DNA of 64,000 bases from Butyrivibrio sp. YAB3001 (GTDB lineage: Bacteria; Bacillota; Clostridia; Lachnospirales; Lachnospiraceae). Shown here one piece after another: positions 51,998-57,459 of the stretch. Position 1 is the stretch's first letter; every line of letters starts with the position of its first letter. The position numbers and the translations under genes were made by a program. The stretch spans positions 138,624 to 202,623 of the forward strand of contig NZ_FOKR01000002.1 in the NCBI RefSeq assembly GCF_900112195.1, read 5' to 3'. The notes below the pieces were generated by a model, which saw only the letters and a list, made by a program, of their open reading frames with translations, did no database searches and was not told the DNA's origin.

Positions 51998-53236
51998 TTA
52001 TTTTCCATATTCGCTTACAATTCCAAGAAGGATTTCAACCACCTTCTTCATTTCCTGAACTGAAGCATACTCGTATTTACCATGATAATTGTAGCCACCT
52101 GTACAAAGGTTAGGGCATGGAAGTCCCTTATAAGAAAGAGCTGCTCCATCTGTGCCTCCTCTGATAGGTGAATCAATAGGAGTAATCCCAAGATTCTCCA
52201 TAATCTTTTTGGCATTATCTACAAGATGCATGTGAGGACGTATCTTACTGATCATGTTATAGTACTGATCGTGCATTTCAACAACAACAGTTCCTTCACC
52301 ATATTTCTTATTAAGGAAATCTGCTGCGTCCATAAATAGCTTCTTTTTCTTCTCGAAAAGGACCTCATCATGGTCTCGTATGATATAAGAAGCGCTTGCT
52401 TTCTCTGTTCCGCCTTTCACTTCTGTAAGATGAAAGAAACCTTCTCTTTTCTCGGTATACATTGGATTCATAAATGCAGGCAAAAGAGAATGGAATTCAT
52501 AGCAGATAAGCGCAGCATTTATCATTTTGTTTTTGGCATCACCCGGATGAACACTTCTTCCATTTACGAAAATATTTCCCTCTGCGGCATTAAAATTTTC
52601 ATATTCAAGTTCGCCGAGTTTACCACCATCAACTGTATAAGCGTACTTGGCACCGAATTTTTCAAGATCAAAATATGCTGTGCCGGCGCCGATTTCCTCA
52701 TCAGGAGTAAATGCAATCTTAATATCTCCATGGCGAATGTCAGAATTTTTTAACAAAGTCTCTGCCATTGTCATGATCTCGGCAACTCCAGCCTTGTCAT
52801 CAGCACCAAGAAGTGTTGTGCCATCTGTTACTATAAGATCTTCTCCTACATGATTTGAAAGCTCAGGGAAATCAACAGGTGATAATGCCACATTCTCTTT
52901 TTCATTTAAAATAATATCTTTACCGTCATATTTCTCGACGATTCTTGGCTTAACATCTTTGCCGCTTACTTCATCAGAAGTATCCATATGAGCAACAAAA
53001 CCAATTGCTGGCAGCTCACTTCCATTTTCTGCATTTGACGGAATTGTAGCATATACATAGCAGTGCTCTTCATCATAAAAGACATCGCTTGCACCAATCT
53101 CTTTAAGTTCGTTAAAAAGAATTTTTGCAAGGTCATGCTGCTTCATTGTTGAAGGAGATGTGCCTGTTGTATCATCCGACTGTGTATCAACCTTTACATA
53201 TCTTAAAAATTTTTCAATAACGTCATTTCTTTCCAT
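51998..53236 (-). CDS. pepT: peptidase T (tripeptide aminopeptidase)
   Basis: Zinc M20B peptidase removing the N-terminal residue of tripeptides. Metal and catalytic motifs: VAHMDTSDEVSG, GADDKAGVAEIM, PDEEIGAGT and DGGKLGELEYENF; the C-terminus has PIRGGTDGAALSYKGLP. I start at the ATG at 53236 (MERNDVIEKFLRYV), which gives 412 residues, the family length. The open frame extends 40 codons further upstream, but that part is out-of-frame GH13 coding sequence. The start overlaps the GH13 gene end by 14 nt. Confidence 0.94.
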   Translation of the reverse strand: MERNDVIEKFLRYVKVDTQSDDTTGTSPSTMKQHDLAKILFNELKEIGASDVFYDEEHCYVYATIPSNAENGSELPAIGFVAHMDTSDEVSGKDVKPRIVEKYDGKDIILNEKENVALSPVDFPELSNHVGEDLIVTDGTTLLGADDKAGVAEIMTMAETLLKNSDIRHGDIKIAFTPDEEIGAGTAYFDLEKFGAKYAYTVDGGKLGELEYENFNAAEGNIFVNGRSVHPGDAKNKMINAALICYEFHSLLPAFMNPMYTEKREGFFHLTEVKGGTEKASASYIIRDHDEVLFEKKKKLFMDAADFLNKKYGEGTVVVEMHDQYYNMISKIRPHMHLVDNAKKIMENLGITPIDSPIRGGTDGAALSYKGLPCPNLCTGGYNYHGKYEYASVQEMKKVVEILLGIVSEYGK

Positions 53237-55193
53237 TTTTCTTTTTCTTAGCTTCTTTCTTCTTATATTCTGTATCAACAATGCTCTTGTATATGCGAAC
53301 TGATCTGTCACTTTGAAGTTGGAGTTCTTTGTTATCTCTTTCCTTGGAATCACCATTGTTTATAGGATTAACCTCAGTATCAGAAACTATCTTCCACTTT
53401 AATCCATCAGGAAGCTTTGGAAGAGCAAATTCCATTTTTAACCAGTGCATATTGTAGCAAACATATATAAATGTTTTATCAGTATTGTCTTTATCATAAA
53501 GACCACAATATAACATGCCCAGCACATGACTATATCCTGAAAGATCAGGTCTCCACGCTTCTTTCCCATGGCAGGAAAGGTCCGGATACCCACAGGAAAT
53601 GTAATCCATTAGTTTAAATGGCTTTGCATTATGTAAAAATCCATTCTCTGATTTAAGATTAACCAGGAACTTAACATATTCTAATATATCCTGATTTCTG
53701 TCAAGAGCTTTCCAGTCTACCCATCCAGTCTCATTGTCCTGACAATAAGGATTATTGTTTCCTGCCTGAGAATTACCGAACTCATCACCGCTGTATATCA
53801 TGGGAATTCCCTGTGATAGGAACAGCATTGTCAGAACATTCTTAATCTGTTTCTTTCGAAGTTCAAGAATATTATGTCTTCGTGTTCTTCCCTCAATACC
53901 GCAGTTCCAGCTTAAATTGTTATCAGTGCCGTCCTTATTGTTCTCGCCGTTTTCTTCGTTATGCTTGTGTTCATAGGAAACAAGATCGGCGAGCCTGAAC
54001 CCTTCATAATCACAAACATAATTGATAACGCCATAATGTTCATCATTAGCGATCATCACTTTAAAAAAGTCAGACACAGTATTGTCATCGCTTTTTAAGA
54101 ATCTGCGCGAAGCATTCAAAAAGCTGTTATTATAGATTGCAATCGTTTTGTTCTTTGGAAAATTGCCACCATATATGTATCCGGTGTCAAACCACTCATA
54201 CCAGATCTTTACATCAGTAAATAGCGGTTCATTCACAATCTGTCTTACAGGAATTCTTTTCCCTTTAAGATGGAATCCGTCAACATGGTACGTGCATCTC
54301 CAAAATCTAAGAGCATCTATTATCAGACTCTCATTTTCGTTATCTTCAAAAAAGAACTGTAAAACGACCTCAATATTATTTTCATGTAGTGTTTTTACAA
54401 AATTTTTAAACTCATTCTCTGCATCGTAAGGATTTTCGCAATAAGCAGATCTTGGAGCAAAATAATAGCCTTTTTTATAGCCCCAGAAATTCACCTTCTT
54501 AGTCACTGAATTCTCATTTACGATACTTCCATCCTTGGAAAAGACAACATTTTCCCTTGGAATCTTATTTCTCTTTAAAGAATTCTCAACCTCATTCATT
54601 TCAACAATAGGCATAAGCTCAATTGTTGTAACACCTAAATCCTTAAGATAGGGCAATTTTTCAAGAATTCCGGCAAATGTTCCCCTTTTCGCAGATGGAA
54701 CACCACTGCTTGAACTCTTCGTAAAACCTCTTACATTAAGTAAATAGATAAAGCTCTTTTCATAAGGGATATTGGGAGATTTCTCATTGCCCCAGTCAAA
54801 TACCTGAGTATTGTCAAGTCTTTGAGACTTATTATCAAGTTTTGCCCTTATTTCGCTGTCTTCCACATCCTTGCCAAAGCCTTCAAGCCCTATGATCTGT
54901 TTGGCATATATATCGCAAAAATAATTACCGTCAGCAAAATAATTATAGGAATCATATTTATCGATATTATCTATTCCTTTAATTCTTGCTGAATAAATAG
55001 CGCCGTGTTTTAATTCTTTAGGAAAAGTGATAGTAAGTTTATCTGCATCTCTGCATTTAGTTGCAGGATATAGTGTAATGCCACAATTCTTATTATCAGA
55101 AAAAACAGCCCTCACAACAAGACTCTTATCATAATCAATATAGCATCCAAGCGGATATGGCTTTTCATTTAGAACCTGATATTTTACCTGCAT
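53223..55193 (-). CDS. GH13_11 isoamylase/debranching-like protein with missing catalytic residues
   Basis: 656 residues with isoamylase/GlgX-like layout: an N-terminal beta domain (1-130), a TIM barrel (about 145-500) and a C-terminal beta domain. Family landmarks are clear: LKDLGVTTIELMPI, NFWGYKKGYYFAPRSAYC, YGGNFPKN, LADLVSYEHKHNEENGEN and SQGIPMIYSGDEFGNSQ. The catalytic sites are altered. Region I DVVYNH reads QFFFED (280-285). Region II GFRFD reads GFHLK, with Lys310 in place of the nucleophile Asp. Region IV HDGF reads YEGF (396-399). Only the region III Glu (Glu333) remains. It probably binds but does not cut alpha-glucan. A basic Lys-rich tail ends the protein. Confidence 0.85.
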   Translation of the reverse strand: MQVKYQVLNEKPYPLGCYIDYDKSLVVRAVFSDNKNCGITLYPATKCRDADKLTITFPKELKHGAIYSARIKGIDNIDKYDSYNYFADGNYFCDIYAKQIIGLEGFGKDVEDSEIRAKLDNKSQRLDNTQVFDWGNEKSPNIPYEKSFIYLLNVRGFTKSSSSGVPSAKRGTFAGILEKLPYLKDLGVTTIELMPIVEMNEVENSLKRNKIPRENVVFSKDGSIVNENSVTKKVNFWGYKKGYYFAPRSAYCENPYDAENEFKNFVKTLHENNIEVVLQFFFEDNENESLIIDALRFWRCTYHVDGFHLKGKRIPVRQIVNEPLFTDVKIWYEWFDTGYIYGGNFPKNKTIAIYNNSFLNASRRFLKSDDNTVSDFFKVMIANDEHYGVINYVCDYEGFRLADLVSYEHKHNEENGENNKDGTDNNLSWNCGIEGRTRRHNILELRKKQIKNVLTMLFLSQGIPMIYSGDEFGNSQAGNNNPYCQDNETGWVDWKALDRNQDILEYVKFLVNLKSENGFLHNAKPFKLMDYISCGYPDLSCHGKEAWRPDLSGYSHVLGMLYCGLYDKDNTDKTFIYVCYNMHWLKMEFALPKLPDGLKWKIVSDTEVNPINNGDSKERDNKELQLQSDRSVRIYKSIVDTEYKKKEAKKKKNGKK

Positions 55194-55402: not shown

Positions 55403-56707
55403 TTAAATAAACAGCTTTTCAGCATCCAGCTTTACTATTGATTCTTTTGATATTTGGAGTTCATTCCACTTTCCCATAATTCTGTCTACCGGAATCTGAT
55501 AATCTTCAGTAGAAGCCTTCATAAGCAATGTTAGCGCCTTATCACTTCCGTATTTTGTAATAACATCACTTCCTCTAAGACAGGAGGACATAGTTTCAAC
55601 AAACTCATCAACGCACTCATTTACAGGCTTTTGGCTACTTTCAAAAGTAAAAATAAGAAAATGCACTCCAAACGCATAGTTTCTCTCAAACCTGATAAGA
55701 AAGCGGAATACATTTTTAAACATATCTATAGGTATTACATAGGCACCCTTTTGCCCTTCTCTTTCTCCCAGAATCTTCCTGATCTCAAAGCTACTTGCTA
55801 TTTCTTTTTCAGAAGAGTTCTCAGCCGTCTGCTTATAAATGGAAAAACCATGCTTTCCATTTTGTTTAACTTCATAAAGAGCCAGATCTGCCTTTTTAAA
55901 AAGAGTCGCATAATCATTTCCTTCATCAGGACATATGCATGCGCCGATAGAGCAGCCAAGAGGTATATTCATATCTTCAGAAAGACACTCTTTTGCATAG
56001 CTTAATATTTTCCTGTTAAGAAATTCGCATCTTTCTTTAAGCATTCTCTCATCTTTTGTATTCTGACAAAATGCTATGAATTCATCACCGCCGATTCTTC
56101 CAACGATATCTGTGGATCGCATCACACTCTTTAAAATCTCAGAAAATTTTAGAAGAATCAGATCGCCCTTTTCATGTCCGTAAATATCATTTACCAGCTT
56201 AAAGCTGTCAAGATCGATCATCATAAGGATTCCATTGCCGTTTTTGACAAGTTCATCAATCTTGGATGCGCTGGTCGTCTTATTATAAAGCCCGGTCATT
56301 GGATCATTTTCAGCCGCTTTCCTAAGTCCCTGAATTTGTCCAAGGTTATCCATGATATTGTCGACACGTCTAAGAAGCACATCTGACTTAAAAGGCTTTC
56401 TGATATAGTCTACAGCTCCGGTGGTAAGGCTCTTTTCCTCACTGTCATCTCCAGACACTCCGGTCATAAACATAACCGGAATTACAAAATTATACATTTG
56501 ACGTAAAGCATCCATCATCTCAAAACCGTCCATCCCCGGCATCATAAGATCGGATAGGATCATATCAGGCTTTGTTTTTTCATATAATTCAATAGCTGCT
56601 TTTCCTGAATCAGCAGTTATTACGTCATATTTATCTGACAATATTCTTTGTGTCTGTTTGCAAAATATTGATTCATCATCAACGACAAGAATTCTTCTTT
56701 TATCCAT
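55403..56707 (-). CDS. response regulator with tandem GGDEF domains, second one degenerate
   Basis: Residue numbers count from the in-frame ATG at 56710. REC domain at 5-120 with the acidic pocket VDDE, phospho-acceptor Asp54 (ILSDLMMPG) and Lys in RKPF. First GGDEF domain at about 135-290 with GGDEF 207-211 and an I-site RSTD (198-201), so a product-inhibited cyclic-di-GMP synthase. A third domain (about 315-425) repeats the fold: LRGSDVITKYGSDKALTLL aligns RGSD to the I-site and GSDKA to GGDEF. It keeps the I-site but not catalysis and may sense cyclic-di-GMP. The start is the second of two ATGs, at 56707, behind GAGGTGG. Confidence 0.88.
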   Translation of the reverse strand: MDKRRILVVDDESIFCKQTQRILSDKYDVITADSGKAAIELYEKTKPDMILSDLMMPGMDGFEMMDALRQMYNFVIPVMFMTGVSGDDSEEKSLTTGAVDYIRKPFKSDVLLRRVDNIMDNLGQIQGLRKAAENDPMTGLYNKTTSASKIDELVKNGNGILMMIDLDSFKLVNDIYGHEKGDLILLKFSEILKSVMRSTDIVGRIGGDEFIAFCQNTKDERMLKERCEFLNRKILSYAKECLSEDMNIPLGCSIGACICPDEGNDYATLFKKADLALYEVKQNGKHGFSIYKQTAENSSEKEIASSFEIRKILGEREGQKGAYVIPIDMFKNVFRFLIRFERNYAFGVHFLIFTFESSQKPVNECVDEFVETMSSCLRGSDVITKYGSDKALTLLMKASTEDYQIPVDRIMGKWNELQISKESIVKLDAEKLFI

Positions 56708-56752
56708 CATCCACCTCAGATATCAATGTATGAATTATCAAATGATATTTCA

Positions 56753-57051: not shown

Positions 57052-57093
57052 CTACATGTTAAGTTATTTTTTTATATTCAGGAGGCTTATTTG

Positions 57094-57459
57094 ATGGAAT
57101 TTTCCAAAGTTGCTACAGATATGAACACCAAAATTGAAAATGGCGACCAGACAACCGTTGACATTGAGCTTGATAACAATGAAACTGTTACCTGTGCCAT
57201 TATCATCGTTCTTACAGTTAATAGTAAAGATTACATTGTACTTCTGCCACTTGATAAGAATGGTCAGAACGAAGATGGAAATGTATGGTTCTATGAATTC
57301 ATTTATAATGGTGAGGATGCTGACCCGGATCTTGGCTACATCAGTGATGATGATGAATATGAGGCTGTTTCTGAGGCCTTCAACCTCTATCTCGATGATG
57401 TTGAATTTGATGAGATTGTAGAACTGCCCGAAGAAGGACTTGATGGCGAAGAAGAATAA
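57094..57459 (+). CDS. DUF1292-family protein
   Basis: 121 residues, very acidic. The core VTCAIIIVLTVNSKDYIVLLPLD followed by VWFYEFIYNGEDADPDLGYISDDDEYEAVSEAF is the DUF1292 (YrzB-like) pattern; function unknown. The ATG at 57094 has AGGAGG 8 nt upstream; an in-frame TTG just before it is not needed. The Glu/Asp-rich C-terminus ([17 protein letters not shown]) is encoded by DNA that also encodes, on the other strand, the last 23 codons of the helicase gene. Confidence 0.9.
   Translation: MEFSKVATDMNTKIENGDQTTVDIELDNNETVTCAIIIVLTVNSKDYIVLLPLDKNGQNEDGNVWFYEFIYNGEDADPDLGYISDDDEYEAVSEAFNLYLDDVEFDEIVELPEEGLDGEEE

Follow-up and report, generated by a model that had tools for sequence, protein, structure and literature searches.

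A 64,000-nucleotide stretch of the Butyrivibrio sp. YAB3001 genome (contig NZ_FOKR01000002.1, positions 138,624 to 202,623; here called the window) carries the gene for P0001, an isoamylase-like protein of family GH13_11 that, judged by its active-site residues, is almost certainly not a debranching enzyme and may well bind glycogen without cutting it. The reading frame runs from an ATG at 55193 to a TGA at 53223 without an internal stop and is full length and intact, as a preliminary description of this DNA had claimed. The features of P0001 are listed in order along the protein.

53223-55193, minus strand: gene for P0001, predicted noncatalytic isoamylase-like protein, 656 amino acids (open reading frame, Pfam, NCBIfam, AlphaFold2 model)
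54789-55154, minus strand: CBM48-like N-terminal part, residues 14-135 (placed by similarity with GlgX)
54342-54359, minus strand: region I QFFFED, residues 279-284, replacing DVVFNH (alignment)
54330-54341, minus strand: site where an active-site loop of 44 residues is deleted, directly following region I (alignment)
54264-54278, minus strand: region II GFHLK, residues 306-310, with Lys310 at the nucleophile position (alignment)
54195-54197, minus strand: Glu333 in region III, the sole catalytic residue left (alignment)
54105-54107, minus strand: Arg363, equivalent to maize ISA1 Arg504 (su1-NC site), invariant in 119 homologues (alignment)
54003-54008, minus strand: region IV Tyr396-Glu397, replacing His-Asp (alignment)
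53889-53987, minus strand: border-lobe loop 1, residues 403-435, with Asn412 (maize N561), Glu417 (SvGlgX E470), and Trp429 (maize W578) (alignment)
53712-53789, minus strand: border-lobe loop 2, residues 469-494, with Asn479 (maize N628) and Asn481 and Tyr483 (SvGlgX N534 and Y536) (alignment)
53394-53606, minus strand: C-terminal domain segment, residues 530-600, with D530, P537, S540, H542, W547, N581, P592, and W600 conserved family-wide (conservation count)
53226-53267, minus strand: Lys-rich C-terminal tail, residues 643-656 (sequence)

Pfam recognizes an Alpha-amylase domain and, weakly, an isoamylase C-terminal domain in P0001, and calls CBM48 in both GlgX paralogues of the same genome but not in P0001. 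The nearest NCBIfam model is GlgX (TIGR02100), at 305.4 bits against a curated cutoff of 640.9, which places P0001 outside that equivalog. The solved structures nearest by sequence are plant ISA1, Streptomyces venezuelae GlgX (SvGlgX), Chlamydomonas ISA1, TreX, E. coli GlgX, and plant ISA2. An AlphaFold2 model built with 77 sequences (mean predicted local distance difference test score [pLDDT] 86.5; predicted template modeling score 0.88) matches ISA1 9xvg_A over 541 residues (VIA-align Z 36.3; model range 6-641), followed by SvGlgX (Z 35.2) and ISA2 9lfn_C (Z 34.8; root mean square deviation 2.8, 533 aligned), with Z differences below 1 treated as ties. The isoamylase/GlgX fold that had been proposed is thus predicted to be kept over the whole length, with CBM48, a (beta/alpha)8 barrel, and a C-terminal beta domain. 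A promoter and terminator scan gave matches no more frequent than in shuffled sequence.

P0001 was aligned with E. coli GlgX and with the two GlgX paralogues of its own genome, both intact, and the alignment shows that the catalytic center is gone: region I lacks its Asp, Asn, and His, the nucleophile and the region IV His-Asp are replaced, and a 44-residue loop is missing. Active GH13_11 enzymes have a nucleophile Asp, an acid/base Glu, and an Asp in regions II, III, and IV, whereas P0001 has Lys310, Glu333, and Glu397. The preliminary description had read the substitutions in regions I, II, and IV correctly; its claim that the catalytic residues are lost holds for those three places, but the general acid/base is still present as Glu333. 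It also missed the shortening by 44 residues of the loop from region I to Trp298, a stretch of 13 residues in P0001, 12 to 13 in 119/119 homologues, and 57 in 16/16 aligned active GlgX sequences.

These residue counts (n = 119) cover P0001, its 80 closest loci, and 38 further genomes chosen mostly for partial or weak matches; L130, which duplicates the place of L111, is not counted. Being the best 80 of 565 relatives among GTDB genomes, the 80 loci are biased to near relatives; their labels are mostly Butyrivibrio and other Lachnospiraceae, with a few odd or broad ones (uncultured Eubacteriaceae, Clostridia, a Bacillus sp. metagenome-assembled genome, and an uncultured bacterium). Alignment A2 omits L051, L059, L062, and L077 of the 80, with a reason given by the tool (a stop codon) only for L059.

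Loss of the triad and of the loop is common to all 119 homologues, and a complete Asp/Glu/Asp triad occurs at the aligned positions in none: two residues are kept in 4, one in 41, and none in 74. Because the triad is incomplete in 81/81 of the closest set (P0001 and the 80 loci) and in 38/38 more divergent sequences, the loss in P0001 is not a matter of chance or assembly error. The nucleophile position is occupied by Lys (37), Met (33), Asn (23), Leu (12), Ile (7), or other residues (7), and the lone Asp there, in L106, belongs to a protein without the acid/base Glu. The region III position holds Tyr, Glu, Asp, His, Lys, and others, the acid/base Glu being retained in 26 sequences including P0001; the region IV Asp is retained in 22, and the region I Asp position is Gln in 81, Glu in 32, and Asp in 3. 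A sub-group (L093 to L109) comprises shorter dead isoamylases of 568 to 630 amino acids, with GF[IVF]xN/D in region II and mostly HT or HN in region IV.

Other parts of the protein are retained to very different degrees. Among 199 positions at least 90% identical in the 16 active sequences and scored in the 119 dead ones, retention is 0.56 in P0001 residues 1-141, 0.70 in 142-283, 0.30 in 284-345, and 0.24 in 346-395, then 0.84 in 396-440, 0.79 in 441-468, 0.90 in 469-495, and 0.89 in 496-656; 32 of the 199 are absent from P0001 and have a retention of 0. Fifty-one positions are conserved in both the dead and the active sets, and 27 of them fall within the two loops 396-440 and 469-495, which together span 72 residues. 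A further 14 positions are conserved in the dead family and are below 90% in the active set; 11 of these match the commonest active residue (one as a tie), and E417, D530, and D538, conserved at 95% or more among the dead sequences, are not the majority residue in active enzymes.

The two well-kept loops correspond by alignment to the border lobe of maize ISA1. This lobe forms secondary binding site 2 (SBS2), walls the glucan channel on one side, and contains the su1 missense sites R504, N561, W578, and N628 (PMC12510319). In those su1 variants activity is undetectable and starch content differs, from which their authors infer a function beyond catalysis (PMC12510319). The four counterparts, placed with a single numbering offset under which each of the four agrees with the rice ISA1 segment, are almost unchanged in the 119 homologues (R363 in 119, N412 in 119, W429 in 112, and N479 in 119). 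Sites whose alteration abolishes the activity of maize ISA1 are kept in a protein with no activity to protect, which calls for another use of the lobe.

Contacts to sugar in SvGlgX (PMC9530166), numbered with a +3 offset read by eye from a phmmer alignment, give a similar picture. SvGlgX contacts the -1 sugar through W222, Y224, H271, D342, E378, W380, and H449, and outer sugars through R212, E470, N534, and Y536 (PMC9530166). W222, Y224, E470, N534, and Y536 correspond to P0001 W237, Y239, E417, N481, and Y483, kept in 119, 107, 119, 119, and 118 of the homologues; the two loops hold the last three, outer-sugar contacts, together with three of the four maize sugary1 border-lobe matches. Nearly all 119 lack the counterparts of D342 and W380, all but one lack that of H271, and 97 lack that of H449; the residue matching E378 varies, and for R212 the alignment shows no conserved match. 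Taken together, most of the residues for cutting have gone, and those for holding have stayed.

The dead isoamylase is widespread in Lachnospiraceae and is found in about 125 of 150 sampled genomes. A match occurs in 127/150, from which G003 and G042 are removed since their best match is their own active GlgX; about 37 of the 125 are residue-read and the rest score-counted, including G038 and G110, which stand on E-value alone, and three unlisted match-free genomes were identified by elimination. At strict cutoffs it is in no sampled genome outside the family: hits number 17 among 147 genomes from the order, 8 among 243 from the class, and 3 among 398 from the phylum, every one of them in Lachnospiraceae, although the cutoffs (1e-105, 1e-105, and 1e-100, respectively) were set to exclude active GlgX and could miss remote relatives. 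The 63 dead sequences form one clade (SH-like support 0.92) in a FastTree tree that also includes 16 active sequences and one pullulanase outgroup, although long branches could exaggerate their monophyly. Reading frames are long and open, with an in-match stop in 1 of the 80 loci (L059), and the ratio of nonsynonymous to synonymous substitution rates (dN/dS) across genera is 0.05 to 0.14 (median 0.09; 8 pairs with dS <1.5 of 10 in the identity range, partly sharing sequences and so not independent). The gene is under purifying selection and has been retained for a function, and the concerted loss with retention that had been proposed from P0001 alone extends to the family. P0001 is best explained as a member of an old, vertically inherited noncatalytic GH13_11 branch of Lachnospiraceae.

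Glycogen synthase GlgA is present in 149/150 and branching enzyme GlgB in 146/150 of the Lachnospiraceae genomes, making glycogen an almost universal possible client of the dead isoamylase; these genes are useless as a phylogenetic marker. GlgX is found in 43/150 (counted by score at E 1e-125, with 25 over the curated cutoff and one a 470-amino-acid fragment in G033; 15 of the proteins, from 13 genomes with that of the window among them, were read for residues) and type I pullulanase in 38/150. A GlgX match is present in 41 of the 125 dead-isoamylase genomes and absent from 84. In 61 of the 125, neither GlgX nor type I pullulanase was found, other debranching families not having been searched, even though almost every one of these genomes has genes for glycogen synthesis.

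A second GH13 protein, the long branching enzyme GlgB2 with an N1 domain, has a strong match in 95/150 genomes, a count that omits the weak-match-only genomes G045, G107, and G135. The copy in the genome of the window lies outside the window.

G000:C29:42917-45484: P0002, long second branching enzyme (GlgB_N and CBM48; L153, L154)

P0002 has lost all three catalytic residues and has a long Lys/Thr-rich tail, and GlgB2 is dead at all three (Ser/Ala, Lys, and Glu) in 30/30 Butyrivibrio loci read, P0002 included, out of 40 genomes with the gene; the copies read from seven other genera are intact. Both genes are listed in 84 genomes, where they form 28 same-contig pairs, with 26/28 on the same strand and 13/28 within 20 kb, and in L132 they are about 3 nucleotides apart. 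Given shared ancestry and bacterial strand bias, this linkage is a hint rather than a test.

The surroundings of P0001 in the window include three genes.

51998-53236, minus strand: M20 peptidase gene downstream of P0001 (start codon inferred from sequence)
55403-56710, minus strand: response regulator with a GGDEF domain, directly upstream of P0001 with a gap of 209 nucleotides (window)
57091-57459, plus strand: DUF1292 gene between the helicase and P0001 genes (same place in at least 43/81 neighborhoods)

The peptidase, presumably PepT, has an inferred start that overlaps the 3' end of the P0001 gene by 14 nucleotides, which suggests that the two may share a transcript. Across 81 neighborhoods, with each family but the last two named from one member, the recurrent neighbors are a UvrD-type helicase (59), gltX (53), a DUF5662 gene (43), DUF1292 (at least 43), and, mainly in Butyrivibrio, the M20 peptidase (28) and genes that we take to be miaB (30) and mutS (29). 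The cluster of the GGDEF response regulator has no further member in the remaining 80 neighborhoods, 9 of which hold some open reading frame with a GGDEF or GGEEF motif. SvGlgX binds cyclic di-GMP (c-di-GMP) through an ExR(X)6R motif and Arg438/Arg579 (PMC9530166), and the phmmer alignment of P0001 with SvGlgX begins past that N-terminal motif; the upstream GGDEF gene and the c-di-GMP-binding relative together provide a lead to a link between c-di-GMP and the dead isoamylase.

P0001 is, in our view, rather probably a noncatalytic glycogen-binding protein, and glucan holding on glycogen is the best-supported of the functions that can be deduced for it. It is favored because many of the residues that survive contact or adjoin glucan in related proteins and because glycogen synthesis genes are almost universal in the hosts. 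The preliminary description had suggested glycogen binding or regulation of glycogen metabolism, which the choice of kept residues favors. The protein would be cytosolic, and its border-lobe face would bind alpha-1,4-glucan chains of the cell's glycogen without cutting them, either holding the chains, masking them from branching enzyme or phosphorylase, or placing other enzymes on the particle, as in the noncatalytic function proposed for maize ISA1/ISA2. The step from binding to an effect such as masking, recruiting, or ordering chains is speculation by analogy.

Several observations weigh against this reading. Retention is not specific to the lobe, being 0.89 in the C-terminal part (9 positions) and 0.70 in barrel strands 1 to 3 (38 positions), and border-lobe residues could be kept for folding or protein binding. 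The SBS2 Trp is missing in 7/119, and the Glu417 position is Trp in 12/16 active sequences, so that this sugar contact is not general and is taken from SvGlgX alone. Loops 428-433 and 482-486 of the model have a pLDDT below 50, which fits ligand-dependent loops or a poor model. The conserved neighborhood consists of housekeeping rather than glycogen genes, and the latter are so common that their co-occurrence says little. Neither binding nor activity data turned up for any family member, and no title or abstract opening found describes a dead bacterial isoamylase, which is weak evidence of absence as subscription papers were mostly not covered.

Among the alternatives, that P0001 is a decaying pseudogene is hardly credible: catalytic residues are lost and L059 has its stop, but long open frames, a dN/dS of about 0.09, and the 51 positions kept in 119 homologues refute it unless selection acts only on overlapping signals. 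It is also very improbable that P0001 retains enzyme activity, through some other catalytic apparatus or in a different reaction, since a catalytic residue would not vary as the region II nucleophile and region III positions do, and part of the groove is deleted; the kept Glu333, the preponderance of Gln and Glu at the region I position, and the conserved E417, D530, and D538 speak for it. Repurposing away from glucans, to serve RNA, DNA, or protein, has a precedent in plant MKIP1, a dead branching enzyme that acts in intron splicing (PMC13172542), and the housekeeping neighborhood, Lys-rich tail, and three conserved acidic residues would suit it. We nevertheless consider it unlikely, as many of the kept residues lie at or beside glucan in relatives, a new site does not stand out when 11 of 14 dead-family-conserved positions match the commonest active residue, and no large new insertion was seen.

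Two further alternatives give P0001 a partner. It might be an obligate subunit resembling ISA2, forming a heteromer with active GlgX and modulating it, given that plant ISA2, itself of GH13_11, binds its paralogue ISA1 and makes it more active (PMC12892837), that two intact GlgX paralogues are present in the same genome, and that the dead copy occurs in 41/43 GlgX genomes (Fisher P = 0.014, not corrected for phylogeny). With 84/125 genomes lacking a GlgX match, 61 of them also without type I pullulanase, and with the P0001 and GlgX genes not adjacent in the genome of the window, dependence of the ISA1/ISA2 kind is improbable for P0001 and ruled out as the general case. A role as glucan-binding partner of GlgB2, presenting or masking chains for branching, is to be doubted almost as strongly. 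Strong GlgB2 matches are more frequent with the dead isoamylase (86/125) than without it (9/25; Fisher P = 0.003, not corrected for phylogeny), and the same-contig pairs point the same way; against this, 39/125 have no strong match, including 17/17 genomes of the short sub-group L093 to L109, distances reach 400 kb, so that linkage may reflect inherited chromosome order, and in the genome of the window about 146 kb separates the genes, which lie on opposite strands, with Butyrivibrio GlgB2 itself dead. A bolder form of the glycogen-binding reading, tentative and on balance rather unlikely, is that bacteria evolved a dead isoamylase as a stand-alone glucan chaperone that would keep the SBS2/border-lobe face (SBS1 in plant ISA2) and organize chains without any isoamylase, and that in Butyrivibrio, together with dead GlgB2, it would form an all-pseudoenzyme scaffold setting the architecture of the glycogen particle.

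Plants already provide an example of noncatalytic isoamylase function, but ISA1 combines it with catalysis, and the two are difficult to disentangle there; a family that is dead in every member read, and often without a recognizable active isoamylase, would let the noncatalytic function be tested alone. A published genome table gives Butyrivibrio hungatei MB2003 glgX2 as a 648-amino-acid GH13 protein without CBM48, annotated as glycogen debranching enzyme, and a table in a later paper has it upregulated on pectin (log2 3.27, a figure that needs care since the false discovery rate column there prints values like 3.69E+06); its locus tag differs between the two papers (bhn_I1315 and bhn_I1336). 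By size, domain content, and name only, glgX2 may be the orthologue of the P0001 gene. If so, the gene is expressed and misannotated, and gut and rumen Lachnospiraceae may be credited in metabolic reconstructions with a debranching step that it cannot perform.

Compared with active GlgX, TreX, and plant ISA1, P0001 shares the fold, the CBM48-like N-terminal part, the border lobe, the -1 floor Trp/Tyr, and outer sugar contacts, but these enzymes have the catalytic residues and the 44-residue loop, and P0001 scores half of the TIGR02100 cutoff. MKIP1 presumably belongs to a GH13 subfamily other than that of P0001. Like P0001, it derives from a storage-glucan GH13 enzyme and was retained after activity was lost (PMC13172542), but it gained a 150-amino-acid insertion for its partner, and P0001 has a deletion instead. 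Plant ISA2 is a dead GH13_11 paralogue of the same fold, retained for a noncatalytic role, and P0001 resembles it in being noncatalytic by sequence. Distribution suggests, with a tree that holds no ISA2, that the bacterial branch arose separately from ISA2 of Chloroplastida. ISA2 carries an additional N-terminal beta-sandwich and acts together with ISA1 (PMC12510319), whereas the P0001 model has no extra N-terminal domain, aligning to ISA1 from residue 6, and the bacterial copy often occurs in genomes without a GlgX match. ISA2 keeps SBS1 and has lost SBS2 (PMC12510319); P0001, by contrast, keeps the SBS2/border-lobe residues.

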